DNA of 64,000 bases. Origin: Eubacteriales bacterium. GTDB taxonomy: Bacteria; Bacillota; Clostridia; Lachnospirales; Lachnospiraceae. Position 1 is the first letter of the stretch. The number at the start of each line of letters is the position of its first letter. Shown here piece by piece: positions 4,247 to 30,132 of the stretch. The stretch is taken from positions 18,577-82,576 of the forward strand of contig JAUNPS010000018.1 in the NCBI GenBank assembly GCA_030536575.1, written 5' to 3'. The notes below the pieces were generated by a model, which was given only the letters and a program-made list of their open reading frames with translations, had not been told where the DNA came from and searched no databases. The translations under genes and the position numbers were made by a program.

Positions 4247-4486
4247 ATGGCAGTATCTTATAAAAAGCTTTTCAAAATGCTGATAGATAGGGATATGAAA
4301 AAGAAAGATTTTAGAGAACTAACAGGTATTAGCAGCAATACCGTTACGAAGCTTGCAAAAAATGAGAATGTCACTATGGAAGTAATCGAAAAGATATGTA
4401 TTCATATGGGTTGTACGGTTGATGAGATTGTGGATATTATTCCTGATGATCCAATAGGTGAGAATGCAGAAAAGATGGGGAAATAG
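4247..4486 (+). CDS. XRE/Cro-family HTH regulator of the BREX operon
   Basis: A 79-residue DNA-binding protein of the small Cro/CI type. A helix-turn-helix is visible (KKKDFRELTGISSNTVTKLAK), followed by a short helical tail ending in DEIVDIIPDD. The ATG before AVSYKKLF is chosen because homologous regulators begin there; an in-frame ATG at 4214 would add 11 residues. The stop lies 13 bases before brxA, so the two are co-transcribed. With the perfect inverted repeat at 4186-4211 over the promoter, it most likely autoregulates and keeps the defence operon at a set level. HTH proteins are common first genes in BREX loci. Confidence 0.85.
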   Translation: MAVSYKKLFKMLIDRDMKKKDFRELTGISSNTVTKLAKNENVTMEVIEKICIHMGCTVDEIVDIIPDDPIGENAEKMGK

Positions 4487-4499
4487 AGAGGTTTTGCAT

Positions 4500-9354: not shown

Positions 9355-9410
9355 AAAGACATATGCTGGAGATAATAGTAGAAAATTGATTATTTATGAA
9401 AGGAAAAAAC

Positions 9411-11437: not shown

Positions 11438-11468
11438 GAATAATATAAAATAAAGCGGGGTGACTGAC

Positions 11469-12524
11469 ATGGAGATTAAGAAGCTCACGTTAAATAATTT
11501 TATGCTTTTTGAAAATACAGAGATAGATTGGGCAAAAAATATCAATATTATTTGCGGAGAAAACAGCACTGGCAAGACAACTCTGTTAAAAGTAATGTAT
11601 TCTGTTCTGAAACCGCTTAGCAGGGGAAGTAAAGAGGCTCTCAGCAAAGAAATGGAAGAGCAGTTATTTGTAAGTAAATTGCAGGGAGTATTCCGTCCAG
11701 ATGGAATGAAAATTGGAAGACTGGTAAGCCGTAAACAAGGCAGTAATCGTACAGATTTTATGATTGAATTGGATAAAAACCAAAGGGTTTCCATTGGTTT
11801 TGGAAATCGTCAGGAGAATCACGCGGATGTTAAGGTACAAACGGTAGCTCCGCAGTTCAAATGTGATGTAATTTATATTCCGACAAAGGAGATGATATCG
11901 ACAACAGAACACTTTGCGTCTCTTTACGAGGAATATCATATTGATTTTGAGGAAATGTATTACGATTTGGCAAAGCTATTAGATCGCCCGCTTTCAAAGG
12001 GACCAAATACGACTGAGCAAAATGAAGTATTAAAGAGTTTTGAAGAAATCATGAAAGGACAGATTGTCCAGAGAGATAAAAAGTTTTATCTTAAAATCAA
12101 GGGCGAGGGTGAATTTGAAATGGGACTGCTCTCCGATGGATATAGAAAGTTATCCATGATTGTTTATATGATTTTATCAGGAAGCATAAGGAAAGATACG
12201 ATTTTGTTTTGGGATGAGCCGGAAACCAATATGAACCCGAAGATGATTCGTCCGATTGTACAGGCAATGGTGGCACTGGCGAGGATGGGAGTTCAGATTT
12301 TTGTGACAACGCATGATTATTTTGTGCAGCAGGAGTTTAACATGCTGACAGTTTATCCTGAGTTAAATCAGAATGAATTGGATACCCGGTTTATGTCATT
12401 ATATCGGGATGAGAAAACGAATGATGTGAAAATTGAGATGCAAAAAACAGCATCCGATTTGAAACATAATGCAATCATGCAGGAATTTGACGCGATTTAT
12501 GATAGAGAACAGAGGGTGATTTAA
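11469..12524 (+). CDS. AAA ATPase (AAA_15 type), accessory BREX gene, copy 1
   Basis: A 351-residue SMC/RecF-like ATPase: Walker A CGENSTGKT at residues 29-37, Walker B ILFWDEPETNMNP, then VQIFVTTHDYF. It is a paralogue of the protein at 16299-17333: the Walker A falls at the same residue number, and both share the FWDEPE.N.NP and VQIF..TH.YF motifs and the leader GGGGTGRCTKAC before the ATG. Unlike that copy it has no complete partner gene behind it; the 127 bases to pglX contain only a short relic frame. It sits between two copies of the pglX start. The role is inferred as a defence ATPase; the effector appears to be lost or supplied in trans. Confidence 0.82.
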   Translation: MEIKKLTLNNFMLFENTEIDWAKNINIICGENSTGKTTLLKVMYSVLKPLSRGSKEALSKEMEEQLFVSKLQGVFRPDGMKIGRLVSRKQGSNRTDFMIELDKNQRVSIGFGNRQENHADVKVQTVAPQFKCDVIYIPTKEMISTTEHFASLYEEYHIDFEEMYYDLAKLLDRPLSKGPNTTEQNEVLKSFEEIMKGQIVQRDKKFYLKIKGEGEFEMGLLSDGYRKLSMIVYMILSGSIRKDTILFWDEPETNMNPKMIRPIVQAMVALARMGVQIFVTTHDYFVQQEFNMLTVYPELNQNELDTRFMSLYRDEKTNDVKIEMQKTASDLKHNAIMQEFDAIYDREQRVI

Positions 12525-12651
12525 GGTTACAGAGAAGTATCAATATAAAGATGAGATGGTTGGACTGTAAGGTGTCGGTTGTTGATTCCGCTACATATAA
12601 CGAGAAGATTTTTCAGATTGTATCATAGATACATTACACAGGAGAAAAGTG

Positions 12652-15600: not shown

Positions 15601-16206
15601 GATAGAGATAACTGTATCCCAATCACAGATGAAGAATATTTTGAGGATGATATTGTGGGCTTGTTTGTTACATGGTTAAAGAAAGTCTATGGTGCGGATA
15701 CGCTGGAAGAAAACCTTGATTTTATTGCAAAAGCTCTTGGTAACAAGGGAGCAACTTCCCGTGAGATTATTCGCAATTATTTCTTGAATGATTTTATGAA
15801 GGATCATATCAAGATTTACCAGAAGCGTCCAATTTATTGGCTTTTTGATTCCGGCAAGCAGAACGGCTTCAAGGCTCTGGTGTATATGCATCGTTGGAAC
15901 GCTGATACAGTTGGCAATCTGCGTGTCGAATATCTGCACAAGATGCAGCATATTTACGAGCGTGAAATTACCCGTATGCAGGAAACCATTGACAATAACC
16001 GGGACTCTCGTGAGGTTTCCAGGGCTACTAAGCGTAAGGACAAACTCCAAAAACAGTTGAAAGAAACCAAGGAGTATGATGCGAAATTGGCACATATTGC
16101 TCTTTCTCGTATTGAAATTGATCTGGATGATGGCGTGAAAGTCAACTATGAAAAGGTTCAGACTGGCAGAGACGGTAAGAAGATGCAGATTCTAGCAAAG
16201 ATTTGA
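12652..16206 (+). CDS. pglX: BREX-1 adenine-specific DNA methyltransferase PglX
   Basis: PglX puts an N6-methyl group on adenine in a BREX recognition site, marking host DNA as self. This 1184-residue protein has the SAM-binding motif DPCMGSGH (D333) and the catalytic motif NPPYMG (N505-Y508) of N6-adenine methyltransferases. A long C-terminal target-recognition region follows and ends in a basic helical segment (ATKRKDKLQKQLKETKEYDA). ATG 12652 has AGGAG eight bases upstream. Length is typical. The middle section coding for about residues 660-860 is AT-richer than the rest and may correspond to an exchanged specificity region. The methylated site cannot be read from sequence alone. Confidence 0.96.
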   Translation: MNKTAIKNFTVWARNKLIADITYKAGLIGVSENGIAAPLPQSSKDLQFFDIGTKDYVQVAGAGIKQRNALVNVIQEKECASDYKTAFKSIIEEVAYTWFNRLIAIRFMEVNEYLPSRIRVLSSENPAKNEPDFVTTPFDTDLEFTVAEQDKIMKLKDENKLDELFRMLFIKQCNKLHEILPELFERTNDYTELLLSISFTDSDGIVYHLVHDIDEDDFNVEKEGQVEIIGWMYQYYNIEPKDETFALLKKNVKITKERIPAATQLFTPDWIVRYMVENSLGRLWVEGHPNDNLKENWKYYLEEAEQELDVETQLEEIRAEYRNLNPEDIKVIDPCMGSGHILVYCFDVLMQIYESQGYTQRDAAQSILENNLYGLDIDKRAAQLAYFAVMMKACEYDRRFLKRGIQPHVCAISESNGVDSYTLEYFCNGDAKLTKAMKTIVDELHDAEEYGSLLTVTPQEWSALYARFDEIEDDISMHKEASLALKPLVETAQVLSQKYHTVCTNPPYMGSSNMNGDLAKYVKDNYPDSKSDLFAVFIERCGKMVVRNGYQAMITQHAWMFLSSFEKLRGKMQQVDTVNMAHLGPRAFEEIGGEVVQTTSFVLRKSHTPDYKGTYCRLIEPTTQQGKEDMFFLGENRYVATQDNFAQIPGSPVAYWVSQCVLNIFSNTSSFRKYGKSLQGTVTGDNERFMRLWYEIAYYKLSIATKSELPSKWYPYCKGGEFRRWYGNLIHVINWENDGFEIRNFYDENGRLKSRPQNTSSFFKEGITWSSLTGGFFGGRYLPDNSTFSDIGPLLILNNNECLYNVLAYVNSKVFQAILDICCTGLHYQNGIIAGLPCIDPKYKSEYVDTVTKECISISQKDWDSYETSWDFQRHPLVGRGVTQISDAFVQWESECETRFQKLKSNEEELNRIFIEIYGLQDELTSEVKDKDVTVRKADLGRDIRSLLSYAVGCMLGRYSLDEPGLAYAGGEWDDKKYKTFIPDRDNCIPITDEEYFEDDIVGLFVTWLKKVYGADTLEENLDFIAKALGNKGATSREIIRNYFLNDFMKDHIKIYQKRPIYWLFDSGKQNGFKALVYMHRWNADTVGNLRVEYLHKMQHIYEREITRMQETIDNNRDSREVSRATKRKDKLQKQLKETKEYDAKLAHIALSRIEIDLDDGVKVNYEKVQTGRDGKKMQILAKI

Positions 16207-16298
16207 ACGGATAAAAATTGCCAAAGTGAAAGATAAGATTTAGAATGAATTGGGGAATAAATAAATTATGTATATGCTTGTAGAAAGGGGTGGCTTAC

Positions 16299-17333
16299 AT
16301 GAATATTAAAAGTATTAAGCTGGAGAATTATACTGTCTTTGAAAAGCTTTCACTGGATTTTAACAAGGGAATCAATGTATTTATCGGTGAAAATGCGACC
16401 GGAAAGACACACTTGATGAAGCTGCTTTATGCCGCATGTAAGTCAAATCGGGCTAATACCGGCTTTGAAGAGAAGATTGTTCGTACCATGATGCCGGACG
16501 AATTTCGGATAAGCAGGCTTGTAACAAGAACCGCTGGGAATCGGCATGCAAAAGTAAAAATATTAGCGTCTCAGAATGAGCAAAAAGCAGAACGACAGCT
16601 GTCCATCGAATTTGCTCGAAATATAAAGAAGTGGAAAGCAATTGTAAAAGGAAAAGAAGGCTGGGAGAAAGCTTTTGCAGAAGATTCCAGTGTATTTATT
16701 CCGGCAAAAGAAATTTTGTCCCATAGCTATAAGCTGGCTGCAGCAACGAGTGTGGATAATGTTCGATTTGACGATACGTATATTGATATTATCAATTTGG
16801 CGAAAATTGATATTTCAGTGGGAAAGAATCCGACACTTCGTTCAGGGCTGTTAAAGAAAATTGAACGGATCACAGGGGGCAAGATTCAGTATGACGAGAA
16901 AAAAGATGAGTTTTATTTAAAACAAGGAAATTCTAAACAGGAGTTTAATCTTGTCGCAGAAGGAATTAAGAAAATGGGGCTTTTGTGGCAGCTGGCAAAA
17001 AATGGTACTTTGGAAAGCGGCTCTGTATTATTCTGGGACGAACCAGAAGCAAATATTAATCCCGCTAATCTTTCTCTGGTTGCAGAGCTTTTGCTGGAAT
17101 TACAAAGAAATGGTGTTCAGATATTTATATCTACACATAACTATTTTTTAGCTAAATATCTGGATATTAAGAAAACAGATCAAGACGATGTCTCATTTTA
17201 CTCATTCTATTATGGTGCTGAGGAACAGGGTGTACAATGCGAAATCAATGACCAATTTACATTATTGGAAAATAACCCCATTACAAAGACATATCTTCAG
17301 ATTTATAGAGACGAGCTGGGGGTGGTATTATGA
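16299..17333 (+). CDS. AAA ATPase (AAA_15 type), accessory BREX gene, copy 2
   Basis: A 344-residue AAA_15-type ATPase: Walker A IGENATGKT at residues 29-37, Walker B VLFWDEPEANINP, H-switch region VQIFISTHNYF. It is paralogous to the ATPase at 11469-12524. The start ATG follows AAAGGGGTGGCTTAC. Its stop overlaps the start of the next gene (ATGA), so both are made together. The pair lies between pglX and pglZ, a common place for extra genes in BREX-1 loci. I infer a toxin- or nuclease-plus-ATPase module that widens BREX defence. The trigger is unknown. Confidence 0.84.
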   Translation: MNIKSIKLENYTVFEKLSLDFNKGINVFIGENATGKTHLMKLLYAACKSNRANTGFEEKIVRTMMPDEFRISRLVTRTAGNRHAKVKILASQNEQKAERQLSIEFARNIKKWKAIVKGKEGWEKAFAEDSSVFIPAKEILSHSYKLAAATSVDNVRFDDTYIDIINLAKIDISVGKNPTLRSGLLKKIERITGGKIQYDEKKDEFYLKQGNSKQEFNLVAEGIKKMGLLWQLAKNGTLESGSVLFWDEPEANINPANLSLVAELLLELQRNGVQIFISTHNYFLAKYLDIKKTDQDDVSFYSFYYGAEEQGVQCEINDQFTLLENNPITKTYLQIYRDELGVVL

Positions 17334-17857
17334 TGGCTCCTTTAATCGCAGAATCCGGAGTGGAATTTGGTCCGTTTGAGGAAGAACGGCTGTTTCGAAT
17401 TGAGCATTCAGAGGTTCATAAACGTGCTGGAAAAGGGATTAAAGCTGTTGAATTTGTCTATTTGACAAAGAAGGCTAATCTTCTCTTTGTTGAGGCGAAA
17501 ACCTCCTGCCCAAATCCGGAGAATAGAGATAAAGACAGTGATATGCGGAAAAAATATGAGGAAACGTATTCTGAGATTACGGATAAATTTATAGATTCTC
17601 TTCATATGTTTGCGGCAATGGCATTGGGGAGATATGGGGAAAAGCCTGGAGCCGGACAACTCATTCGTCGTACATACAGCGAAATAGGAATCAAATTTGT
17701 TCTTGTAATAACAGGCGCAAAAGAAGAGTGGCTAATGGGACCGAAAGCGGAACTGGAAGCTAGACTGCTTCGAGTCCGTAATATATGGAAAGCAGATGTG
17801 ATTGTTTTGAATAAGGATATGGCAACCAGATATGGACTTATCAGAGATGGGGAATAA
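17330..17857 (+). CDS. Putative PD-(D/E)XK-like partner of the AAA ATPase
   Basis: A 175-residue protein I do not recognise by name. Residues 41-57 read EFVYLTKKANLLFVEAK: a strand, a turn, then VEAK with E55 and K57. This looks like the E-(x)n-E-x-K core of PD-(D/E)XK nucleases. The C-terminal half contains a second strand (GIKFVLVITGA) and a helical end. Its ATG overlaps the TGA of the ATPase by four bases, and its stop codon precedes pglZ by one base, so it is fully embedded in the operon. Nuclease activity is an inference from a short motif; a non-catalytic adaptor is possible. Confidence 0.65.
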   Translation: MMAPLIAESGVEFGPFEEERLFRIEHSEVHKRAGKGIKAVEFVYLTKKANLLFVEAKTSCPNPENRDKDSDMRKKYEETYSEITDKFIDSLHMFAAMALGRYGEKPGAGQLIRRTYSEIGIKFVLVITGAKEEWLMGPKAELEARLLRVRNIWKADVIVLNKDMATRYGLIRDGE

Positions 17858-17858
17858 A

Positions 17859-20471
17859 ATGGCAGAATTGAGCTTGAAACAGGTTGTAGATAAGCTGAAT
17901 GAGGAATTGTCCGGTGATGTGCGGAAGCTTATTTTTTGGTATGATGCCAATGCTGAGTTTGCGGATGATGTGGACACAATGGAACTGGTGAATGCCAAAG
18001 TGCTGCATCTGGAGCCGGACAACCAGTTCTATACAAAATATTTTCTGGAGTGCGTAGATACCACGACGAACTATCTAGTATATGCTCCTTTTGCGAAGCC
18101 TGCTATTCGAGAGAACCATTTGGCGGATACTATCAAGTATTCTAAAGAGTTCTTTGCTGACAGAGCTTCCTTGCTGACCCTTGACTTGGGCATTGACGAA
18201 CGCTACAAGCCGGTGATCCAGCATTACATTAAGTTTTTCGGAGAAAAGAAGCGTACTCAGGCTTTCTATGATCTGGAGATTGAGACTTTTAATCGTAATA
18301 CGATTGAGATTGCCCTGATGAGCGTTCTCTGCAAGTGTAAGACTCCTTCCTATGAGGAGGTTCTTCGCACTGTTCTGACCGACAAAGTGAATTCCGCTGA
18401 AAGCGGAAGCGAGGGCAGCCTGAGCTGCGCGGGATTTAATGAAAATCCGTATCTGGCAGAGTTCAAGAAATATGATCTCTTGGATGCGTTCTGGCGTCAG
18501 GCGCAGGATGTATTTGGGTATGCAGATGAGAAACCTACCCTTGAGAAGTTCACGATGACTATGTTCGTGACTTATGCAGCCAAGGTTATCTCTGCGGAGA
18601 TGCCCGTTGCATGGAGGGCGTTCATTAGTTTCAAGTCCGGTAATGTTATTGCATTTATTGACAACCTGATGAACAGTTACATTTATGGGGAAAGATTCGA
18701 CGAGATTTCTAAGTTGGTTTATGACAGCTTGAAAGCAGATACTGAGTTTAGAAAATTCCCTGTCGAAGCGCTTGTTTCCTGCGGTATATTTGCGGGTGTT
18801 GATGAGCTGCTGATTGATTGGGTTATCGAAAGATTGGAACTGGAAGATGTAGCTGCCAGGTTGGGTGACATTACAATCCCTCAGTTGGTAAAACAGCGTC
18901 GTCAGGGGCACTTTGGAAAGCTGTATCGCTCTGAGTATTTCGTGTTGCAAAACGCATGGAATATCATCTCCGGAGCACAGTATGTATCTTCTGCAAGCCT
19001 GAACGAGATGGTGAAAAATTATACGACCGATCTGTATAAGATGGATCGCTATTACCGCTACTTCTATTATTATCTGGATAAGCTCGAAGATACGACAAGA
19101 TTTGACAGGCTGAAAGAGCTGGTTGAGAATATTTATGCCAATGATTATCTGGCGAAGGTATGTACCAACTGGAACGATCTTTTCAGCAACGAATTAGAGT
19201 CTTTGCAAATTGCAAAGCAGCCTGACTTTTTTAATCGCAATGTGAATTACGCAAAAGACCAGTTGGTTGTTATTATCTCTGATGCCCTGCGTTATGAGGT
19301 CGGCATGACTCTTTTTGAAAAATTGCAGGCAGACGAGAAATGTACTACTACGATGAAAACGATGGCAAGCACCTTACCTTCTATCACACAGTATGGTATG
19401 GCTGCATTGCTTCCGCATAGAACGTTGGAATTGACTGACGACTATACTGTATTGGTTGACGGGCAGAAAACTGAGACATTGGAACAGCGTCAGACAATTC
19501 TCCAGAAATATAAACCTGCCAGTAGATGCGTTCAGTACGATGACATCAAAAATCTGAGTGTGGCAGATCTCCGCAGTATTTTTACCCGTCAGGATGTGGT
19601 ATATATCTACCACAACCAGATCGACGCCAGAGGTGATAAGCTGAATACGGAAAATGAAGTGTTCAATGCCTGCGCTGAAGCTGTGGATGAAATCGCTGCA
19701 TTGATTCGCCGTTTGACGATCAGCGCCAACAGGTCTCATTTCATTGTGACCGCAGACCATGGTTTCCTTTACAGAAGAAATAAGCTGTCTGAAAGCGATA
19801 AGGTGAATGTCCCCAAAGGGGACAGAGAGGATGGCCTGGGCCACAAGATTAGCTCTGTATCAGGTACAGCGGATATTCTCGGACGCCGCTATCTCCTTTC
19901 AGTGGAAGCCGTAGAAACGGAGGGTGTGGCAGCAACAGCAGTCGGTACTATGATGCAGAATAAGGATGAGCGTATGGTTTCTTATCCGGTTGGGGCAGAT
20001 ATTTTCAAGGCTCCCGGCTCTGGCATGAATTATGTTCATGGCGGTTGTTCCCCTCAGGAGATGCTTGTTCCCCTGATTGAGGTCAAGACGGAACGCGGAT
20101 ATAAAGAAACTACAACGGCTCAGATTGCTCTGGTAAGTTTGACTTCCAAGATTACAAACCTGATTACCTCTCTTGACTTTGTTCAAACAGAAGCAGTCAG
20201 CGATGTGGTTAAAGAAACAACCTACCGGCTCTACTTTGTAGATAGCAATGGAGAGAGGATTTCTAATGAGCATTTGTACGTTGCCGATAAAAAGGACAAT
20301 GATACGGTTAAGCGTGTGTTCCGCTTACGTTTCTCTTTCAAAAACAAAAAGTACAATAAGTCTCAGAAGTATTATCTGGTGGCTTATGACGATAACAATG
20401 CGCTTGAAGTTCTGCGGCATGAAATTGTAATGGATATTGCATTTGCGGATGAGTTTGATTTTGGATTCTAA
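17859..20471 (+). CDS. pglZ: BREX-1 phosphatase-like protein PglZ
   Basis: An 870-residue PglZ, the hallmark alkaline-phosphatase-superfamily protein of BREX systems. The N-terminus has FWYDAN, as in type A PglZ. The PglZ domain shows IISDALRYEVG with D475 as candidate metal ligand and TADHGFLYRR with D633-H634 as the second metal site. It acts with PglX in site recognition, and metal-dependent nuclease activity has been reported for the family. ATG 17859 (before AELSLKQ) follows GGGG; the reading frame is open further upstream but would overlap the previous gene. Length is normal, and brxC and brxL bracket it as in canonical type 1 loci. Confidence 0.95.
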   Translation: MAELSLKQVVDKLNEELSGDVRKLIFWYDANAEFADDVDTMELVNAKVLHLEPDNQFYTKYFLECVDTTTNYLVYAPFAKPAIRENHLADTIKYSKEFFADRASLLTLDLGIDERYKPVIQHYIKFFGEKKRTQAFYDLEIETFNRNTIEIALMSVLCKCKTPSYEEVLRTVLTDKVNSAESGSEGSLSCAGFNENPYLAEFKKYDLLDAFWRQAQDVFGYADEKPTLEKFTMTMFVTYAAKVISAEMPVAWRAFISFKSGNVIAFIDNLMNSYIYGERFDEISKLVYDSLKADTEFRKFPVEALVSCGIFAGVDELLIDWVIERLELEDVAARLGDITIPQLVKQRRQGHFGKLYRSEYFVLQNAWNIISGAQYVSSASLNEMVKNYTTDLYKMDRYYRYFYYYLDKLEDTTRFDRLKELVENIYANDYLAKVCTNWNDLFSNELESLQIAKQPDFFNRNVNYAKDQLVVIISDALRYEVGMTLFEKLQADEKCTTTMKTMASTLPSITQYGMAALLPHRTLELTDDYTVLVDGQKTETLEQRQTILQKYKPASRCVQYDDIKNLSVADLRSIFTRQDVVYIYHNQIDARGDKLNTENEVFNACAEAVDEIAALIRRLTISANRSHFIVTADHGFLYRRNKLSESDKVNVPKGDREDGLGHKISSVSGTADILGRRYLLSVEAVETEGVAATAVGTMMQNKDERMVSYPVGADIFKAPGSGMNYVHGGCSPQEMLVPLIEVKTERGYKETTTAQIALVSLTSKITNLITSLDFVQTEAVSDVVKETTYRLYFVDSNGERISNEHLYVADKKDNDTVKRVFRLRFSFKNKKYNKSQKYYLVAYDDNNALEVLRHEIVMDIAFADEFDFGF

Positions 20472-20484
20472 GGGAGGTGTTTGA

Positions 20485-21993
20485 ATGGACATAAAGGAAT
20501 TACAATCCATTCTTACAATTGGAGAAACCGTAGCGGTAGAATTCAAACGCTGCGGTAATGGAATAGAATCGGATACCTATGAAAGTGTTTGCTCTTTCCT
20601 GAATCGTTTTGGAGGGGACATTTTCATGGGTGCGCTGGATGATGGTACAGTGCTTGGCGTGCCGGAAAAAGCGGCTCCTGATATGATAAAGAATTTTATC
20701 AGTGTAGTGAGCAATCCTGCATTATTTTCTCCGACTGTTTATCTGACTCCGAAGATAATCACGGATGAAGCCGGGCATACAATTATCCATGTTCACGTAC
20801 CGCCAAGCGCCGAGGTTCACAGTTATAAAAAAGTGATTTACGACCGTGTAGACGATGCGGATGTTAAGGTGACGGCTACTGGTGCGATTGCACAGATGTA
20901 TATCCGTAAGCAGAACATCTTCACGGAAAAGAAGATTTATCCTTATGCGACAATGGAGGATTTACGGCTGGATCTGTTACCGAAAGTCCGGCTCATGGCG
21001 CAGAATCATGCGGGTGGGCAGCATCCGTGGACAAAGATAGACGATATGCAGCTGTTGAAAAGTGCGGGATTATATGGAAGAGATATTGCGACTGGGGAAG
21101 AAGGGTTTAATCTTGCCGCAATTATGCTGTTGGGGAAGGACGATGTCATTCTGAATGTAGCTCCTACCTATGTTACGGATGCGCTTGTCAGAAAGGTTAA
21201 TGTAGATCGGTATGATGACCGTGAAATCATAAAGACAAACCTGATTGAAAGTTATGAGCAACTGTTGGAGTTTGGTAGGAAGCATCTGCCGGACAAGTTC
21301 TTTTTGGAGGATACCATAAATAAGAGTCTGAGAAATACGATTGTCAGGGAGATGGTCAGCAATACGCTGATGCATCGAGAATTTACCAGCAGTTATACGG
21401 CGAAGTTTGTGATTGAAAAAGACCAGATGTATGTGGAAAATGCAAATCGTGCAGCAAAGGACGGATGGATTACGGTGGAAAATCTGTCACCAAATCCGAA
21501 AAATCCGTATATAGCAGCATTTTTTAGAAATATCGGATATGCGGATCAGCTTGGTTCCGGGGTGCAGAAATTGTTTGAGTATAGCAAGTATTATTCCGGA
21601 CGTGATCCACAGTTTTTGGAGAGCGATGTGTTCCGGATTATTGTACCATTGGATGAGGCATATTCTTATGATTTTGCATTGCTTGATGGTAAAAATGGTA
21701 TCAGTGGAACCCAATATGCCGATAATGAGATCAAAAGTGCCGAAGAAGCCACCCAAGCGACTACCCAAGCCACCCAAGATAGGAACCAATCGCTGATGCG
21801 GTTAAAAGAAAATGAAACGGTAAAGAGCGTTTTAAAGTTAATAGAAAAGAATCCTGCTATTTCTCAGAAGCAAATAGCAAAAACATTGTGTTTGAATCAA
21901 AACACGGTAAAATATTATATAAAGAAGATGAAAGAGATTGGAATCATAAAGAGGGTTGGTTCTAGTCAAACAGGTCACTGGGAAATTCTCTGA
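20485..21993 (+). CDS. AlbA_2 (Schlafen-type) ATP-binding protein with C-terminal winged helix
   Basis: A 502-residue protein in three parts. Residues 8-130 are an AlbA_2 (Schlafen-like) domain with EFKRC and the FLNRFGGDIFMG signature. Residues 270-400 resemble the ATP-binding HATPase_c_4 domain (EMVSNTLMHREF, then GSGVQKLFEYS). A linker with the short repeat ATTQATQ leads into a winged helix (PAISQKQIAKTLCLNQNTVKYYIKK). Such proteins are often called transcriptional regulators, but in defence islands AlbA_2 domains can also be RNA- or DNA-binding effectors. It lies between pglZ and brxL with ribosome site GGGAGG. Its role could be BREX regulation or an added effector. Confidence 0.8.
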   Translation: MDIKELQSILTIGETVAVEFKRCGNGIESDTYESVCSFLNRFGGDIFMGALDDGTVLGVPEKAAPDMIKNFISVVSNPALFSPTVYLTPKIITDEAGHTIIHVHVPPSAEVHSYKKVIYDRVDDADVKVTATGAIAQMYIRKQNIFTEKKIYPYATMEDLRLDLLPKVRLMAQNHAGGQHPWTKIDDMQLLKSAGLYGRDIATGEEGFNLAAIMLLGKDDVILNVAPTYVTDALVRKVNVDRYDDREIIKTNLIESYEQLLEFGRKHLPDKFFLEDTINKSLRNTIVREMVSNTLMHREFTSSYTAKFVIEKDQMYVENANRAAKDGWITVENLSPNPKNPYIAAFFRNIGYADQLGSGVQKLFEYSKYYSGRDPQFLESDVFRIIVPLDEAYSYDFALLDGKNGISGTQYADNEIKSAEEATQATTQATQDRNQSLMRLKENETVKSVLKLIEKNPAISQKQIAKTLCLNQNTVKYYIKKMKEIGIIKRVGSSQTGHWEIL

Positions 21994-22009: not shown

Positions 22010-24073
22010 ATGGACGAGTATATGGAAACAGATGATACCAGAGTGGTGATAAAGAATAAGCTGCGCCAATATTTTGACGGCAAGATCGTCCGCAAGGATT
22101 TGACGAAGCACATCAAGGAAGGAGCGAACGTACCGGTATATGTACTGGAATTCCTGCTTGGTCAGTATTGCAGTTCCGATGATGAGGAGATCATCGAAGA
22201 GGGCGTAAATAATGTAAAGCGGATTCTGGCAGATAATTTTGTCAGACCGGATGAAGCGCAGAAGGTACTTTCTATTCTTCGTGAGCGTGGCAGCTATACG
22301 GTGATTGATAAGATTACCGTACATCTGAACATCAAGGAAGACCGTTATGAAGCGGAGTTTTCAAATCTTGGAATCAAGAACATTCCGATTCATCCGGACT
22401 ACCCTTCCAAGTATGACCGCCTGCTTTGCGGCGGCATTTGGTGTATTTTGCAGCTGGATTATGAGTTTATCGAAGAAGACAAGAAAAATACGACGCCGAT
22501 TCGCATTCGCAAGCTGACGCCGATCCAGATGCCGCACATTGATTTAGACGAGCTGAAGAACGGCAGAAAAGCATTCACGAAAGAAGAATGGATTGACGTT
22601 CTGATTCGCTCTACCGGAATGGAGCCGGATAAGCTGTCTGACCGTGTGAAGTGGCTGCTGCTGGCTCGTATGATTCCATTGGTGGAGAATAACTTTAATC
22701 TCTGCGAACTGGGACCGAGAAGTACCGGTAAATCCCATATTTACAAAGAGATTTCACCTAACAGCATCCTGGTATCCGGCGGCCAGACGACGGTGGCAAA
22801 TCTGTTTTACAATATGGCAAGTAAGACAGTCGGCTTAGTTGGTATGTGGGACTGCGTTGCTTTTGATGAGGTTGCCGGTATCACGTTTAAAGACAAAGAT
22901 GGTGTGCAGATCATGAAGGATTACATGGCTTCCGGCTCCTTTGCCCGTGGCCGAGAGGAAAAGGCTGCGTCTGCATCAATGGTTTTTGTCGGCAATATCA
23001 ATCAGAGTGTGGACGTGCTGCAGAAAACTTCTCATCTGTTTGAGCCATTCCCGGCGGCGATGGCATACGATACGGCATTCCTTGACCGTATGCATTGTTA
23101 CATTCCCGGTTGGGAGATTCCGAAGTATCGCCCGGATTTTTTCACAGATGATTATGGCTTTATTACGGATTACCTTTCCGAGTATATGCGTGAAATGCGT
23201 AAGGAATCTTATGGTGATGCATTTGATAAATATTTCCGTCTTGGCACCAATTTGAACCAGCGTGATACGATTGCGGTTCGTAAGATGGTATCCGGTTTTG
23301 TAAAGCTGATTTATCCGGATGGCGAGTATAGCAAGGAAGACGTTCAGGAGATTCTGTCGATCTCCCTGGAACTTCGCCGCAGAGTGAAAGAGCAGCTCAA
23401 AAAAATCGGCGGTATGGAGTTCTATGATGTGAACTTCTCATACATTGACAATGAAACTTTTGAGGAGAATTATATTTCCGTTCCGGAGCAGGGCGGCGGC
23501 AAGCTGATCCCGGAAGGAATGGGCAAACCAGGTTCTGTTTACACTGTTTCCAAGTCAAAAACCGGTATGATCGGCTGTTACATGCTGGAAACACAGATGA
23601 TGCCGGGGAATGGAAAGCTGACATGTACGGGTATTGGTTCCGGGAAAGAGCCAAAAGAAGCGACCAATACGGCGTTTAATTATCTGAAAGCCAATGGAAA
23701 CCGCATTTCCGGTCAGATCAGTACCACGACAAAGGATTATATCATCAATTATCAGGACATGCAGGGAATTGGAATGACCGGAAATCTGGCTTTGCCTACC
23801 TTGATTGCGATCTGTTCTGCGGCACTTGGAAAGACTCCATTGAGCAGTCTTGCGATTTTAGGAGAAATCAGTATTGGCGGCACGTTGATTAAAGTAGACG
23901 AATTGGCAAGTACGCTGCAGGTTTGTCTGGACAGTGGAGCCAAAAAAGTATTGCTTCCTACGACGTCAGCGGCAGATCTTGGCACGGTGCCCTCCGAATT
24001 GGTTGGGTCGTTTAGTTTGATTTTCTATGCATCCGCAGAAGAAGCAGTATTTAAAGCTCTTGGTGTGGAATAA
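22010..24073 (+). CDS. brxL: BREX protein BrxL (Lon-like AAA+)
   Basis: A 687-residue BrxL. Walker A GPRSTGKSH lies near residue 235, Walker B VAFDEVAG at D286-E287, and the C-terminal third has the fold of Lon protease domains (LAILGEISIGG, then SGAKKVLLP). Where Lon has the serine motif GPSAG this protein reads GMTGN, so classical Ser-Lys protease activity is doubtful; this agrees with reports that BrxL works as a DNA-binding AAA+ motor rather than a protease. Ribosome site AGGAGGGG. It closes the BREX core, and the next gene follows on the same strand within 70 bases, so transcription probably continues. Confidence 0.95.
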   Translation: MDEYMETDDTRVVIKNKLRQYFDGKIVRKDLTKHIKEGANVPVYVLEFLLGQYCSSDDEEIIEEGVNNVKRILADNFVRPDEAQKVLSILRERGSYTVIDKITVHLNIKEDRYEAEFSNLGIKNIPIHPDYPSKYDRLLCGGIWCILQLDYEFIEEDKKNTTPIRIRKLTPIQMPHIDLDELKNGRKAFTKEEWIDVLIRSTGMEPDKLSDRVKWLLLARMIPLVENNFNLCELGPRSTGKSHIYKEISPNSILVSGGQTTVANLFYNMASKTVGLVGMWDCVAFDEVAGITFKDKDGVQIMKDYMASGSFARGREEKAASASMVFVGNINQSVDVLQKTSHLFEPFPAAMAYDTAFLDRMHCYIPGWEIPKYRPDFFTDDYGFITDYLSEYMREMRKESYGDAFDKYFRLGTNLNQRDTIAVRKMVSGFVKLIYPDGEYSKEDVQEILSISLELRRRVKEQLKKIGGMEFYDVNFSYIDNETFEENYISVPEQGGGKLIPEGMGKPGSVYTVSKSKTGMIGCYMLETQMMPGNGKLTCTGIGSGKEPKEATNTAFNYLKANGNRISGQISTTTKDYIINYQDMQGIGMTGNLALPTLIAICSAALGKTPLSSLAILGEISIGGTLIKVDELASTLQVCLDSGAKKVLLPTTSAADLGTVPSELVGSFSLIFYASAEEAVFKALGVE

Positions 24074-24117: not shown

Positions 24118-25209
24118 ATTTTTGAACAGGATTTTGAAGAGATGCTTCGGCAGCATCAGGCATCTCTGGATAATAAGAAGATATTTACAGCACTTGTGAA
24201 AGATCTGTTTCCGACGCAGGCAAAGAATGTCAATCTGCTGCTTATGGCCTATAATCTGGGAATTGCACAGGACATACAAAATACCTCCAGAATCAATCAT
24301 GCATTCGCCTTCCGGTATGTGAAACAGTTAATGGATGATTTTGGGGTGAGTCGTGCGAATGCAGACTGGATTGTATCTGTATGGTGCGTTTGCTATGGAA
24401 ATAAAGTGCTGGGCAAAATTTGTGAGATCACATTACAGAAGCAGGGAAACGGGCCGACGATTCAGAGGGAGCAGTCTTCTTCCAGTAAATCCTATGGAGA
24501 TTTGTTTACATATGAGAAAAGCCGCAGAGGAAAAGGTCTTGCAGTGACCGGATTCCGTGGGGATAAGAATCAGACAATCATTTTCCAGAATAGGTCAGGG
24601 AATACACCGGTGGTTGAGATTGCGGATAACAGTTTTAGTAATTCTTCAATAGAGGAAGCTATTTTGACTGAAGGCATTACATATATTGGCCGAAATGCTT
24701 TTTCCGGATGTAAAAAGCTGCATCAGGTGTTATTGCCACCCAGCATTGAGGAGATTGAAGATTCAGCATTTGAAAATTGCAGTCGTTTGAAATCAATATC
24801 CTTGCCAATGGCATTAAAGATGATTGGAGATGGGGCTTTCAAAGGAACCGGACTGCGGACAATTGAGATTCCCAAGAGTGTGTTCTGGTTAGGCGACGGA
24901 CTGGCGAAAGATTGTCAGTCAATGGATCATGTGACGATTCCGGAAAACATAGGCAGGATTCCGGATCATATGTTTGAAGGTTGTACGAATCTAAAGAAAG
25001 TGGAATTTCATGAAAATATGGTTTCGATTGGAGAAAGAGCCTTTTTTGGATGCAGTTCATTAGATTTTGTAATTATTCCGGATCGTGTGAAAAGCATTGG
25101 CCAGGATGCGTTTTCCAATACAGACAAACAGTTTATTATGCAGTGTTCTTTTGAATCTTATGCTGAGGAATATGCAAGAAAACATAAATTAAAGTATCAA
25201 CTGGTGTGA
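24118..25209 (+). CDS. Leucine-rich-repeat (BspA-like) protein with helical N-terminal domain
   Basis: About 363 residues if it begins at the ATT codon 24118 (AAGGTG seven bases upstream), or 355 from the first ATG at 24142, which has no ribosome site. The N-terminal 110 residues are a helical domain (IFTALVKDLFPTQAKNVNLL, then DFGVSRANADWIV). Residues 150-355 carry BspA-type LRR_5 repeats such as IEEIEDSAFENCSRLKSI and MVSIGERAFFGCSSLDFV. There is no signal peptide, so it is cytoplasmic. It links brxL to the kinase-phosphatase-vWA cluster and could serve as a sensor of phage proteins or as a scaffold, which is inference. A mutated ATG (to ATT) is an alternative to a true ATT start. Confidence 0.8.
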   Translation: MFEQDFEEMLRQHQASLDNKKIFTALVKDLFPTQAKNVNLLLMAYNLGIAQDIQNTSRINHAFAFRYVKQLMDDFGVSRANADWIVSVWCVCYGNKVLGKICEITLQKQGNGPTIQREQSSSSKSYGDLFTYEKSRRGKGLAVTGFRGDKNQTIIFQNRSGNTPVVEIADNSFSNSSIEEAILTEGITYIGRNAFSGCKKLHQVLLPPSIEEIEDSAFENCSRLKSISLPMALKMIGDGAFKGTGLRTIEIPKSVFWLGDGLAKDCQSMDHVTIPENIGRIPDHMFEGCTNLKKVEFHENMVSIGERAFFGCSSLDFVIIPDRVKSIGQDAFSNTDKQFIMQCSFESYAEEYARKHKLKYQLV

Positions 25210-25332
25210 TCGGTAATTTTCGTTTGCCGCCTGCTATGCGGCCATAAAGAATAACGTATTGTCTGATAGCAGCGGACGGAAATGTTGCAAATGGAGTATT
25301 TGGTTGATTAAACGAAGGAGACAAATGTCGTA

Positions 25333-26634
25333 ATGGAAGGACAGTTGAAAAAGGGAACGCTTCTCACGTCAGAATGCGGGAACAAATATGAAATTGTAAG
25401 TCTTCTGGGGGCTGGAGGTCAGGGAGAAGTGTATGATGTGAAATGCAAGGACAGCCATTATGCACTGAAATGGTACTTTAAAGGAAGCGCCACAGCAGGA
25501 CAAAAGGAAATCCTGGAAACCATCGTCTCCAAGGGTTCTCCGGATCCGTGTTTTTTATGGCCAATGGAAATGATCGTTCCGGCACAGGGAAATGTATTTG
25601 GTTACATTATGGAGCTTCGCCCTAAGAATTATAAAAGTATTGTGGATTTAATGAAGAGAAAAGCGGAACCTTCTTTCTATGCGCTTTGTCGAACTGCATT
25701 TAATTTGGCTTGTGGATATAAAAAGCTGCATGACTGGGGTGCCGTTTATCATGATATTTCATTTGGGAACCTGTTTTTTGATCCGAGCAATGGTGATGTT
25801 CTAATCTGCGATAACGATAACGTTAGTTTCGATAAGAACAAAACGGGTGGAGTGCTTGGAACCCCAGGCTTTATGGCTCCTGAGATTGTCAGAAGAGAGG
25901 CAAGACCATCAAGAAATACAGACCAGTATTCTCTTTCTGTTTTGCTGTTTTATCTTTTTATGGTGAACCATCCGCTGGAAGGCCGTTTGGAAGCGCAGAT
26001 TAAATGCATGGATATGGCTGCCAGAGAAAAATTATATGGAACAGATCCGGTATTTATTTTTGATCCGGTCAATAAGACGAATCGTCCGGTAAAGGGGATT
26101 CACGATAATGCTTCTATTTATTGGCCAATCTATCCGGAGAAGCTTAGACAGATGTTTACAAAAGCATTTACTACGGGCCTTACAGATCCTAAGAAACGAA
26201 TTACGGAGCTGGAATGGATGACTATCTTTGCAAATATGATGAGCGGTATGATGCAATGTCCTAAGTGTGGCGCCCGGATTTTTTATGATGAAGATTTAGC
26301 AGCAAAAGGAGCAGGGCACCTTTGTTGGAATTGTTCTAACAGCATTGCAGTTCCAACAAAATTAGTGGTGGGAAAGAATATGGTTTTATTGAACCAGAAT
26401 ACACGCATTATGCATCACCACATTTATGGCGATTATGATATGAACACAGTCGTCGGGAAAGTGGTGCAGAATCCAAACAATCCCAACCTCTGGGGAATAC
26501 GTAATGAAGATACTGTGAACTGGACATATGAAAAAGCGGATGGAACACAGATTCCTGTTGCGCCTGGAAGAACAGCCGGAATCGTCAAGGGAGTAAAGAT
26601 TCACTTTCCAAATGGAATTGGTATGTTCGAATAA
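25333..26634 (+). CDS. Ser/Thr protein kinase with C-terminal zinc ribbon (TerY-P triad kinase)
   Basis: A 433-residue Hanks-type kinase: glycine loop GAGGQGEVY at 26-34, lysine K46 in ALKWY, catalytic loop YHDISFGN (D141, N146), and CDNDN (D160) in place of DFG. Residues 309-334 form a four-cysteine zinc ribbon (CPKC...CWNC). The last 90 residues look like a beta-rich FHA-like domain ending PGRTAGIVKGVKIHF. Kinase plus zinc ribbon beside PP2C and vWA genes is the layout described as the TerY-P triad. There is no transmembrane segment, so it is cytoplasmic. Oddly, the ribosome site GAAGGAGACAA serves a two-codon frame ATG TCG TAA whose stop overlaps this start (TAATG). Confidence 0.88.
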   Translation: MEGQLKKGTLLTSECGNKYEIVSLLGAGGQGEVYDVKCKDSHYALKWYFKGSATAGQKEILETIVSKGSPDPCFLWPMEMIVPAQGNVFGYIMELRPKNYKSIVDLMKRKAEPSFYALCRTAFNLACGYKKLHDWGAVYHDISFGNLFFDPSNGDVLICDNDNVSFDKNKTGGVLGTPGFMAPEIVRREARPSRNTDQYSLSVLLFYLFMVNHPLEGRLEAQIKCMDMAAREKLYGTDPVFIFDPVNKTNRPVKGIHDNASIYWPIYPEKLRQMFTKAFTTGLTDPKKRITELEWMTIFANMMSGMMQCPKCGARIFYDEDLAAKGAGHLCWNCSNSIAVPTKLVVGKNMVLLNQNTRIMHHHIYGDYDMNTVVGKVVQNPNNPNLWGIRNEDTVNWTYEKADGTQIPVAPGRTAGIVKGVKIHFPNGIGMFE

Positions 26635-26693
26635 AATGAAATTATTATTTGAAAGATTGATACATACGTCGAATCGTAAGGAGGTTACAAAAA

Positions 26694-27431
26694 ATGGAAG
26701 AACTAAGAAGACCAGGCGGAGAATTAGCAAGCAGACCGCTGCATTTCTTTTGGATTGTGGATTGTTCTGGCTCCATGTACGGAGAAAAAATTGGAACAGT
26801 AAACAATGCGATCCAGACATGTATTCCAGAAATGGCGTCTGCCGCTGAGAACAATCCAAATGCGCAGCTTTTGATTCGCACGCTCAGCTTTTCTACAGGA
26901 GCAACCTGGCTGACGTCAAATCCAGTTCCAGTTGAAGATTATGCATGGGAAGATCTGGATGCAAATGGTGTTACCGATTTGGGAAAGGCATTTGAATTAC
27001 TTGCTGCGCAGCTTTCTATCCCTCCAATGCCGGCAAGAGCGCTGCCGCCAGTTCTTGTATTGCTATCAGATGGGCAGCCAACCGATAATTACAAGAAAGG
27101 ATTAGAGGAATTGAAGAAAATGCCTTGGTTTCGAAAGGCAGTCAAGATTGCTGTTTCTATTGGACAGGATGCAGATGACGATGTATTGATTGAGTTTACT
27201 GGAAATAGGGAGCTTGTTCTTCAGGCAAATAATGCTGCTGCGCTTACAAAGATGATCAAGTGGGCTTCTACAACAGCCTCAATGGTATCTGCACCTGCAA
27301 GCAGACCTATGGATTCTCCGGTATCTGCACCAGCCGACGATCCATTTGCGGCACCGAATGGCGCCCCACTTGTTCTTGATATGAGTAAGATTCCAGATCC
27401 TGGTGATATCGGTGCGGGAGATGTATGGTAG
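26694..27431 (+). CDS. TerY-like vWA-domain protein
   Basis: A 245-residue vWA protein. The MIDAS motif is IVDCSGSMYGEK at about residues 21-32, with LLSDGQPTDN as the later metal-site loop. The last 50 residues are a proline- and alanine-rich linker (SAPASRPMDSPVSAPADDPF) ending in an acidic tail. The ribosome site AAGGAGG lies seven bases upstream. TerY proteins are thought to bind partner proteins in a metal-dependent way and to be phosphorylated by the triad kinase. It sits between kinase and phosphatase; its reading frame overlaps the open frame of the PP2C gene upstream of that gene's real start. Confidence 0.88.
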   Translation: MEELRRPGGELASRPLHFFWIVDCSGSMYGEKIGTVNNAIQTCIPEMASAAENNPNAQLLIRTLSFSTGATWLTSNPVPVEDYAWEDLDANGVTDLGKAFELLAAQLSIPPMPARALPPVLVLLSDGQPTDNYKKGLEELKKMPWFRKAVKIAVSIGQDADDDVLIEFTGNRELVLQANNAAALTKMIKWASTTASMVSAPASRPMDSPVSAPADDPFAAPNGAPLVLDMSKIPDPGDIGAGDVW

Positions 27432-27442
27432 GAGGTGCTTGC

Positions 27443-28288
27443 ATGAAGCATTTACTTTATGGTGAGAGCATCAAAGGAGCTGCTCATGTGCGGAATGGAG
27501 CCCTTCTTCAAGATAGTTATAAAATAGAAAAGGTTTCTGACGATATATCCATCATTGCGGCTGCAGATGGGCATGGAAGCGAGAAATGTCCGAAAAGTAA
27601 AAATGGATCTATGATCGCGGTGAATGTATTCTGTAAGGTAATGAAAGATTATATCAATCATTATTCGGATGCCACAGAAAGTCTTATTACCTGGCTCAAC
27701 CGTGAAGGTGAGCTGAGATTTGCACAGAATATCTGTGATGAATGGCAGCGCAGAGTTCGCAAATCATTCAATGACAGTAAAGCAGAGAAACCAGTAGGTG
27801 ACGATGGAAAAACGGATTGGAAGTCTGTATATAAATTATATGGAACCACGCTCTTGGGATTGCTTATTACTTCGACGTATATATTCGCGTTCCAGTTAGG
27901 TGATGGAGATATCCAATTGGTTGATGAGGGCGGTGTGTCGTCAGTTGTAGAAACAGAAAAGATTCTTGGAACAGAAACCTATTCCTTATCAAAAGTGGAT
28001 GCTTGGAGAAAGGCTGTATCTGCAGTACGCCGGAGGGATGTATCAGAAGGTGTTCCATACTTGTATCTGATTTCTACAGATGGATTTGCAAATAGTTATC
28101 TTACCGAAGAAGATTTTGCAAAAACGTGCCGTGAGTATTTTGCACTTATCAGAAGACATGGATTTGATATAGTATGTGCGAATCTTGGAAAATGGCTGAC
28201 GGAAACCAGTGAATTGGGGTGTGGAGATGACATCACTGTTGTTCTGGCATATTTTGACGCGCGGGAGATGATCTTGGATGGTCGCTGA
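27443..28288 (+). CDS. PP2C-type Ser/Thr phosphatase (TerY-P triad phosphatase)
   Basis: A 281-residue PP2C/PPM phosphatase. Metal-binding motifs are AAADGHGS (first aspartate), LISTDGFAN and GCGDDITVVLAYF near the C-terminus. The ATG at 27443 has AGGAGGTG five bases upstream, which decides against the earlier in-frame ATG at 27425. It should reverse phosphorylation by the neighbouring kinase. Its 3' end overlaps the transglutaminase-like gene by 11 bases, so the two are translationally coupled. Length is standard and no membrane segments are seen. Confidence 0.9.
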   Translation: MKHLLYGESIKGAAHVRNGALLQDSYKIEKVSDDISIIAAADGHGSEKCPKSKNGSMIAVNVFCKVMKDYINHYSDATESLITWLNREGELRFAQNICDEWQRRVRKSFNDSKAEKPVGDDGKTDWKSVYKLYGTTLLGLLITSTYIFAFQLGDGDIQLVDEGGVSSVVETEKILGTETYSLSKVDAWRKAVSAVRRRDVSEGVPYLYLISTDGFANSYLTEEDFAKTCREYFALIRRHGFDIVCANLGKWLTETSELGCGDDITVVLAYFDAREMILDGR

Positions 28289-29303
28289 TCGATATTATTA
28301 TCAATGTTTAAATGATGTTGAGAAGCGAGTATATCAAACCGTTTATGCGGGAATCAAGCAGCAGAAAAGTTTGATTCCGATAACGGTATCTGGTCTTGCA
28401 AAGGAATCTGTAAATCGAATCTTTCATGCGGTGACTGCAGATAATCCGCTTTTTTATTACTGCAATCATTCAGTAATGAGTATTGCGCAGGATCAATTTG
28501 GAAATATGGCTTTTTGTCCACAATATTATTTTAAGGAAGATCAGGTATTCGAACATAATATAAAAATCCAGCAGGCGGTTAACCAGCTGATTGCTGATTT
28601 ACGATTAACAGAAGGATCAGATTACGAAAAGGTTTTAAAACTGAACGAGTATTTTTGCAAAAAAGTAGAGTATGATGCTGCCGGGGCTGATCTGGCAGAT
28701 GTGACACGCGTGATTATGTCTCATACGATTCTGGGCGTATTTGCCAAGCGGAGGGCTCAATGCGAAGGGATTGCAAAAGCGGTTAAAGTCTTGCTCAATG
28801 CGGTAGATGTTAAGTGCATCGTCGTTGATGGAACAGCAACTTTAAATGATGGAACCAGGAGCTTACATGCATGGAATATTATAAAGCAGGGTGGTGTGCC
28901 ATATCATGTGGATATCACATTTAATATGGGCCATACCACAAATGGAAATGTGGCATATGATTGGCTGAATGTCAGCGATGCTATGGTGAAAGGAAATCAT
29001 ATGCCGGATACTGATATGAAATTGCCAGCTTGCCGATCAGAAAAGTTAAATTATTATACATTGAACAAAGCGGTATTTTCATCCAAGAAACAGGCATGTG
29101 AATACATAAAAAAGAAAATAAAATACGGAGAACGGTTGATTTATATGAGATTTAACGGTCGGGTTAAAGTGTCAAACATATATATGGAACTCGTTCAAAT
29201 TGTGAGTGGTGCAATTCGGGAGTGTTACACAGATCAGGATAATTTAACAGTCAGCAGTGTGTTGGGAGTGGATACCAATACACTGAGACTATGGATACGT
29301 TAA
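28278..29303 (+). CDS. Transglutaminase-like cysteine protease domain protein
   Basis: A 341-residue protein with a transglutaminase-like core: cysteine C162 in AQCEGIAKA, histidine H197 in LHAWN and aspartate D212 in YHVDITF make a complete catalytic triad. Bacterial proteins of this type are usually proteases or amidases rather than cross-linkers. Before it lies a 120-residue region with YYYQCLNDVEKRVYQTVYAG, common to this kind of clostridial protein; after it a basic region around residues 270-300. There is no signal peptide, so it should act in the cytoplasm, unlike most transglutaminase-like proteins. It is coupled to the phosphatase gene. I infer a protein-modifying effector or maturation enzyme of the phospho-signalling cassette. 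Confidence 0.82.
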   Translation: MVADRYYYQCLNDVEKRVYQTVYAGIKQQKSLIPITVSGLAKESVNRIFHAVTADNPLFYYCNHSVMSIAQDQFGNMAFCPQYYFKEDQVFEHNIKIQQAVNQLIADLRLTEGSDYEKVLKLNEYFCKKVEYDAAGADLADVTRVIMSHTILGVFAKRRAQCEGIAKAVKVLLNAVDVKCIVVDGTATLNDGTRSLHAWNIIKQGGVPYHVDITFNMGHTTNGNVAYDWLNVSDAMVKGNHMPDTDMKLPACRSEKLNYYTLNKAVFSSKKQACEYIKKKIKYGERLIYMRFNGRVKVSNIYMELVQIVSGAIRECYTDQDNLTVSSVLGVDTNTLRLWIR

Positions 29304-29355
29304 AGAGAGAAGAAGTTTTGTACCAGACACCGGTGGGCGCAAAGGATAGCAGAAT

Positions 29356-30132
29356 ATGAACAGCAAAATTTGTTTATGTGACAAGAAAGCGGATATATTG
29401 GAAAGAGCCATTTACTCTGAGATATGCAGCCATGATGGTTTGAAGGCAAAAGATATATGTAAAAATATTTCAGCCGACCGAAAGACCATCAACCAATATT
29501 TGTACAAAGCGCCGCTTATGAGGGAATTGTGTTACCGTGATGATGATTACAAATGGCATGGATTGGTCCGGCAGAACCGACCGCATATAGGTTTGGGGGA
29601 TTTTTGCGGATATTATAGTTCGGTTGGGGAATTCTTGGAATTGGAGGAGGAAGAATGGTTTAAAACGATGCTTTCCGGATGCAAAAATATCGGGCGGAAT
29701 CTGAATGATACCAGGGGATTGTTCCATTCCTTCCGGGATTGCAGGAATGTGATGGTTCAACTTTTTGAGGATCTGGAGAGTGTCTTTCAACCGGATTGGG
29801 AAATTGCGTTTGAGCTGCGGATCAACCGGGCGCGCTATATCCGAATTTATGCAGATGTGCTTGTGCTTACGGAGGATAAAGCATTTTCTCTGGAATTTAA
29901 GATGAAAGATAAAGCTATGCCAGAGGAAGTCCGGCAGGCTGCGAAGTATACGGAGTATCTGGAAGTGATTTTGGGATCAGAATATGATGTGATTCCCTGT
30001 TTGGTGCTGACCAAGGCAGATGATTTGTACAGATATGAACCATTAGGTGTTGGTGACGCACTGATTCCGGTATGTTCTGGGAATATGTTGTTTAATCTAT
30101 TTGATGAATATATTGGATTCTTGAAAGAATGA
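29356..30132 (+). CDS. HTH plus PD-(D/E)XK nuclease-like protein
   Basis: A 258-residue protein without a familiar name. Residues 20-55 form a winged-helix-like start (GLKAKDICKNISADRKTINQ). The C-terminal half has the strand-turn-strand YADVLVLTEDKAFSLEFK with D167, E180 and K182, which matches the D-(x)n-E-x-K core of PD-(D/E)XK nucleases, followed by a helix (EVRQAAKYTEYLEVI) as in that fold. It is the last gene of the long plus-strand series that starts at the BREX regulator, about 50 bases after the transglutaminase-like gene. A restriction-type effector is the natural inference. The spacing between acidic residues is in range, but activity is not certain. Confidence 0.7.
   Translation: MNSKICLCDKKADILERAIYSEICSHDGLKAKDICKNISADRKTINQYLYKAPLMRELCYRDDDYKWHGLVRQNRPHIGLGDFCGYYSSVGEFLELEEEEWFKTMLSGCKNIGRNLNDTRGLFHSFRDCRNVMVQLFEDLESVFQPDWEIAFELRINRARYIRIYADVLVLTEDKAFSLEFKMKDKAMPEEVRQAAKYTEYLEVILGSEYDVIPCLVLTKADDLYRYEPLGVGDALIPVCSGNMLFNLFDEYIGFLKE

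Follow-up and report, generated by a model that had tools for sequence, protein, structure and literature searches.

The stretch of DNA analysed here (the window: 64,000 nt of contig JAUNPS010000018.1, assembly GCA_030536575.1; coordinates below are window positions) carries a complete type 1 BREX (bacteriophage exclusion) operon and, directly behind its final core gene brxL, a cassette built around a TerY-like von Willebrand factor A (vWA) protein, a Ser/Thr kinase and a PP2C phosphatase. The BREX core consists of brxA (4458-5102), brxB (5107-5682), brxC (5695-9354), pglX (12649-16206), a type A pglZ (17832-20471) and brxL (22010-24073; 687 aa; TIGR02653, 1077 bits), all on the + strand and named with PADLOC, Pfam and NCBIfam, the genes 5' of 17832 being assigned by PADLOC only. 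Behind it, six + strand open reading frames (ORFs) occupy 24142-30132, all of them real and in the place first proposed: a leucine-rich repeat protein (LRR, 24142-25209), the kinase (KIN, 25333-26634), the vWA protein (VWA, 26694-27431), the phosphatase (PP2C, 27425-28288), a transglutaminase-like protein (TGL, 28278-29303) and a winged helix-turn-helix (HTH) protein with a D..ExK motif (NUC, 29356-30132). LRR follows brxL after 68 bases, and the gaps LRR-KIN, KIN-VWA and TGL-NUC measure 123, 59 and 52 bases. The original prediction saw a single overlap, that of PP2C and TGL, which is indeed there (11 bases); a second one, of 7 bases, joins VWA and PP2C. A promoter and terminator scan gave values near shuffle level (31 and 11 versus 23.2, standard deviation 5.6, and 7.0, standard deviation 2.7) and decides nothing. 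Across the first 40 kb the G+C fraction runs at about 0.36-0.49 until about 32 kb and at 0.49-0.57 thereafter, and since the shift comes only beyond that point, BREX and the cassette lie in one low-GC stretch.

What do the cassette genes encode? The LRR protein (355 aa; LRR_5, Pfam E 6.9e-56) consists, in an alignment of 14, of an N-terminal domain of about 100 aa and unknown fold followed by BspA-type leucine-rich repeats. KIN (433 aa; Pkinase, Pfam E 9.8e-16) carries a four-cysteine ribbon at its C-terminus (C309, C312, C331, C334), matched weakly by Pfam (E 0.086); these cysteines and K46, D141, N146 and D160 are invariant over 24 rows. Pfam gave no OB-fold match in KIN, and the stretch after the ribbon carries no domain assignment. 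VWA (245 aa; Pfam VWA, E 1.1e-5) is 32.5% identical to an annotated terY product and has a metal ion-dependent adhesion site (MIDAS) made of DxSxS at 23-27 (DCSGS), T94 and D126. T94 and D126 are invariant in 25 rows; D23, S25 and S27 are not invariant in the same alignment, perhaps through late-called starts in some rows. In PP2C (287 aa; PP2C_2, Pfam E 7.7e-30), D42, D154, D213 and D262 are invariant across 23 rows. The conserved kinase, PP2C and MIDAS residues presumably have the roles known from their families. The C162-H197-D212 triad of TGL (341 aa; Transglut_core, Pfam E 8.7e-7), predicted to be intact, is so in 12/12 homologues, whose profile matches a solved transglutaminase-like protein (PDB 9crn, E 9e-33); inspection by eye showed no signal peptide. 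With a TerY-like vWA protein, a zinc-ribbon kinase and an adjoining PP2C all present, KIN, VWA and PP2C are, judged by sequence, a TerY-P triad, and that earlier assignment is borne out by the Pfam domains, the conserved catalytic-type residues and the ribbon cysteines.

Is this arrangement peculiar to the window? When public genomes were pattern-scanned with the vWA protein, 65 loci emerged; their genes were called by a simple script rather than a gene finder, with rough start sites. Nine have a same-strand brxL upstream, 29 have rnf genes and 27 are other or too short. The fixed order brxL-LRR-168-aa protein-KIN-VWA-PP2C appears in 8/65 (L039, L040, L043, L049, L056, L068, L079, L103); the window reads brxL-LRR-KIN-VWA-PP2C, and L116/L117 has the same order too, with a CRISPR-Cas locus interposed between LRR and the 168-aa gene. 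The full recurring order, gaps allowed, is brxL-LRR-(168-aa protein)-KIN-VWA-PP2C-(TerY-C)-TGL, found in the eight loci and one further genome, and LRR stands behind brxL in the window and nine other loci. TerY-C is present in 8/9 brxL-linked loci (the L079 protein matches PF15616, E 4.6e-10) and TGL in 7/9, the relic L054 counted, versus 0/29 of the rnf-linked ones; L056 ends too early, and in L039 two genes precede TGL. The two usual members in brackets are missing from the window cassette: its genome lacks the 168-aa gene both between LRR and KIN and elsewhere, and no TerY-C gene lies between PP2C and TGL, which overlap. Since there are near-identical copies among the loci (L040/L043; L049/L068/L079), we count about seven lineages, window and L116 included. 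Upstream BREX genes, judged where the contig reaches (L039, L049 and L068 left out), run from brxA to pglZ in L116, L128 (for L079) and L131 (for L056), and from brxC to pglZ in L130 (for L040), with a pglX broken into two; in L115 (for L103) and L043, pglZ or its end is all that shows. In a second sample, 397 genomes of the family, the vWA protein had a match in 19, of which three (window, G338, G521) have it on a BrxL contig, within about 13 kb; the G338 contig is probably identical with that of L103. In G454 a broken LRR comes after brxL, and there is no vWA match. A recurring TerY-P-LRR-transglutaminase extension of one type 1 BREX lineage is real; how it works we infer below.

How rare is the link? 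The controls were the other long BrxL loci of the 397-genome sample, and because they are what remained after the linked loci had been removed, their count is a measure of rarity and no blind test. There are 31 such loci with a called BrxL, 27 of them with at least 1 kb of downstream sequence (1.9-5.1 kb), and no relative of LRR, KIN, VWA, PP2C or TGL was found in those 27 stretches, save an unlike 703-aa LRR protein in L149. Across the 31 listed control genomes (G454 included) the sole vWA match is in G548, 28% identical and on another contig. Dropped were L148 (BrxL missed by the ORF caller), L161 (a duplicate of the L121 locus) and L164 (short), and BrxL fragments and matches of about 30% identity were left out of the fetched loci.

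The brxL gene and the cassette share a history that is not that of the BREX core. Loci were sorted into groups by gene content ahead of any tree building. In a careful BrxL tree (made also without L160, L162, L163, L155, L165 and L068), ten linked rows, including the relic L121, split from 25 unlinked ones with support 100/100; a first tree with all 41 rows also held ten linked rows together (96), and did not resolve the position of L039. The PglZ tree puts linked loci in three places, namely window with L056, L116 with L121, and L040 with L079 and L115, the last nested among unlinked loci. Both PglZ (p-AU 0.000125; 7 vs 23 rows, L162 and L139 left out) and BrxC (p-AU 0.004; 5 vs 19 rows, L162 and L160 left out) reject a single linked clade. 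Because BrxL gives one linked clade and PglZ and BrxC reject it, brxL and the cassette have a common history apart from the core. In the kinase tree, 10/11 BREX-linked kinases group with those of L078, whose contig does not extend far enough to reveal brxL, and of L090; the kinase of L054 falls outside.

The window's own brxL is a mosaic. Residues 1-440 of its product are 95% identical to L056 and 81% to L116, and residues 480-687 are 80% and 95% identical, respectively. Sliding identity in protein and DNA places the switch, from an L056-like 5' part to an L116-like 3' part, at approximately 23360-23440 (+ strand; DNA identity switches at about brxL base 1350-1430), near the border between the AAA+ domain (aa 165-477, Pfam) and the Lon-like domain. 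The BREX core tracks the N-terminal part (PglZ 90% to L056 and 38% to L116; BrxC 89% and 52%), and LRR (52% and 80%) and KIN (65% and 77%) track the Lon-like C-terminal part. As the switch in brxL is matched by LRR and KIN, an exchange seems to have involved a segment that spans the Lon-like domain and, at a minimum, the cassette's first genes.

TerY-P is described as a TerY-like vWA protein, a PP2C and a zinc-ribbon Ser/Thr kinase (PMC11090510, citing Anantharaman 2012 and Gao 2020). To treat it as merely predicted from comparative genomics, as was done for this locus, is outdated, for protection against T7-like phages and Autographiviridae has been reported (PMC7699616, PMC11090510, PMC10889362). 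The window resembles the triad in its three parts, zinc-ribbon kinase and adjacency, and relatives have the TerY-C partner (TerY-C-like zinc motifs are treated in PMC12458937); it differs in the added LRR protein and transglutaminase-like enzyme, the 168-aa protein of relatives and the fixed site behind brxL. With type 1 BREX carrying auxiliary effectors it shares the core gene order and the Schlafen and OLD/TOPRIM auxiliaries, which are included in a survey of BREX accessories (PMC12839542), and it adds a candidate kinase-phosphatase accessory. The main text of that survey has no match for PP2C, leucine, transglutaminase or AlbA, and the parts of it covered here describe no such accessory of type 1 BREX. 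TerY-P is frequent in CoCoNuT types II and III-A, whose superoperons BREX can share (PMC11090510), a co-occurrence seen here too; however, the window's BREX and cassette genes include no McrB-type GTPase or coiled-coil nuclease gene, the large genes of 4458-30132 being otherwise assigned and the rest of the genome not searched. A protein kinase inside a BREX locus recalls PglW of BREX type 2, a single large nuclease-kinase protein (PMC12839542), whereas kinase, phosphatase and vWA protein are separate genes here. BREX with TerY-P, an LRR-kinase pair or a transglutaminase in this arrangement is unreported among the literature matches listed.

How should the cassette be read? The original prediction took all six genes as one system with the protease or the nuclease as effector. 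NUC (258 aa) is on the same strand, behind its 52-base gap, and D167, E180 and K182 are invariant in 12/12 homologues, as a six-gene system would have it. At E 0.1 Pfam gives no match for the protein itself, and 3/12 and 2/12 family members match NERD and HSDR_N_2 weakly. NUC probably combines a winged HTH with a PD-(D/E)xK-type domain. Its gene, however, is absent from all nine other cassettes. NUC has a match in 14/397 genomes, window included (12 at 55-65% identity, one weak), and the 12 fetched neighbourhoods (5-13 kb) showed no cassette genes, save a distant 840-aa LRR match in L188; in one NUC-carrying genome, G471, the vWA protein has a match as well, on a different contig. NUC as cassette effector was therefore rejected, and a six-gene system is highly improbable: the LRR-triad-TGL order recurs behind brxL elsewhere, and in those cassettes the nuclease gene is absent. 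With the nuclease excluded, a reading close to the original prediction is that the cassette might be a TerY-P module that works against phages on its own, has a transglutaminase-like effector and sits in the BREX island as a back-up. The reported phage protection and the intact TGL triad speak for it, as do the neighbour slots, which hold McrBC after TGL in L049, a protein like TmtA in L039, with relatives by BLAST in L079 and L056, a type II-A CRISPR-Cas system within the BREX-linked cassette of L117 (1654-8140; Cas9, Cas1, Cas2, Csn2, array of 8 repeats) and, both in L116 and in the window, OLD-like ATPases. On a Prevotella plasmid, a distant triad (TerY-C, kinase, vWA, PP2C) likewise lies upstream of exonuclease and FtsK genes. 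Yet the kinase of TerY-P-like modules working alone is described with an OB-fold (PMC11090510) and here has a zinc ribbon, and the Pfam-named contexts of close relatives are brxL or non-defence genes, most of the 27 'other' loci not being named further. We regard such a module as somewhat unlikely.

Could the cassette be a general stress switch of the Ter kind (metal, redox, envelope), merely hitch-hiking beside BREX? The LRR-triad adjoins rnf genes in 29/65 loci (Pfam naming of rnf in L041 only), and in L123 a cation-transport ATPase and two TerD proteins (Pfam) are followed by kinase-vWA-PP2C-LRR-TerY-C-TGL, an order repeated in the L132 cassette. In L192 the triad adjoins a Sel1 protein and histidine genes (Pfam on three proteins only), and L190, L191, L193 and L194 have the same gene-size pattern. 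The varied neighbours mark a defence hotspot and also a wider role of the switch. Mere hitch-hiking would nevertheless have to account for one order behind brxL in ten loci and for a BrxL that agrees with cassette presence, against the BREX core, and we consider it unlikely. Because triads also adjoin rnf, TerD and histidine genes, a general switch recruited to BREX fits better than the dedicated defence system first envisaged. The original prediction named homologues in random contexts as its refutation, and this came half true: the triad has such other neighbours, and its BREX link with LRR and TGL partners recurs.

The reading we prefer, tentatively and with less than even confidence, is that the five genes are a TerY-P phospho-switch, equipped with LRR and a cysteine-type enzyme, that one lineage took up to extend its type 1 BREX at the 3' end; a general switch would thus serve as a BREX accessory, acting with BrxL. 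BrxL is pointed to as the contact because the cassette goes with brxL across different BREX cores. The brxL and cassette genes would share one transcript, and the LRR protein would sense or dock. Kinase and PP2C would set a phosphorylation state, read by the vWA and zinc domains and acting on or through BrxL, and when the switch flips the transglutaminase-like enzyme would cleave or cross-link a target. This order of sensing, signal and effect is one we infer; elsewhere the same LRR-triad would probably be a general stress switch. A bolder form, which we find doubtful, makes the cassette a phosphorylation-controlled arm of type 1 BREX in which LRR and TerY-P would bind BrxL at its Lon-like C-terminus and either license restriction or release it, TGL being a fail-safe. 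If true, type 1 BREX would gain kinase control, as PglW may give type 2.

Several observations tell against the recruited switch acting with BrxL, beginning with the rnf, TerD and histidine settings of the triad. BrxL is held not to be indispensable for restriction (PMC12839542). The cassette also decays: in the ninth brxL-linked locus, L054, a brxL fragment abuts a truncated kinase, L043 lacks TGL and its TerY-C is cut, the PP2C of L068 is frameshifted and L121 retains only a broken LRR. The controls are left-over BrxL loci whose downstream sequence was read for no more than a few kb. Among 196 genomes of the order, where the triad was sought through PP2C, BrxL passes the cut-off in ten, and the window's genome alone has it on one contig with the triad. 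The cassette link belongs to one lineage and not to BREX generally. The window's PP2C tracks neither side of the brxL switch (57% to L056, 55% to L116; nearest L039, 67%). Co-variation of the BrxL C-terminus with the cassette at domain level is high with all rows, and was rejected as carried by the window mosaic alone: with the window removed, LRR distances also go along with those of PglZ (rho 0.89, 10 pairs). The domain-level tie thus rests on one mosaic, and no p-value from distance pairs was used because the pairs are not independent. Finally, even in unlinked loci the grouping of BrxL departs from that of the core, and swapping of brxL may therefore be a general or common event; what stands out is the cassette travelling with it.

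Why would this matter? For BREX switching and the role of BrxL the cassette offers a concrete candidate partner, and recurrence behind one BREX gene, with which it seems to be co-inherited, suggests an unrecognised control arm of this defence. As TerY-P switches serve several settings, counting every one as defence would mislead.

The BREX operon holds other inserts, all on the + strand. Two OLD/PARIS-like pairs lie at 9396-11321 and 16290-17857 and a lone OLD-like ATPase at 11460-12524, giving three OLD-type ATPase genes, two of them paired (HEC-01A/B, HEC-02A/B) and the third without an adjoining partner gene. A Schlafen/AlbA protein is encoded at 20485-21993. At L041:2514-9988, LRR-TerY-P genes stand behind the rnf genes, and a Pfam search named no defence gene at that site. 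Scanning viral contigs by pattern, a search that finds close relatives only, gave no relative of NUC, the kinase or TGL; phage records gave one distant kinase match.

With a limit of E 0.1, the N-terminal profile of NUC has four PDB matches (E 0.006-0.039), two named eIF-2 kinases and one ORF112, chains that look like Z-alpha domains; N46, Y50 and W67, residues that count in such domains, are invariant in 12/12. For single members a general winged HTH is the better match (HTH_24, E down to 3.5e-8), which leaves Z-DNA binding as a weak lead. The 168-aa protein (L079:8068-8574 and relatives) is kept in BREX-linked cassettes; a bacterial PH-like fold was considered from by-eye likeness only and dropped, with no Pfam match at E 0.05 and no PDB match to E 1. 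In L039 (16862-18811), an AAA_11 helicase adjoining TGL seems, by BLAST and by eye, to be headed by the N-terminal domain of the LRR protein, which suggests that this common domain is a shared adaptor.

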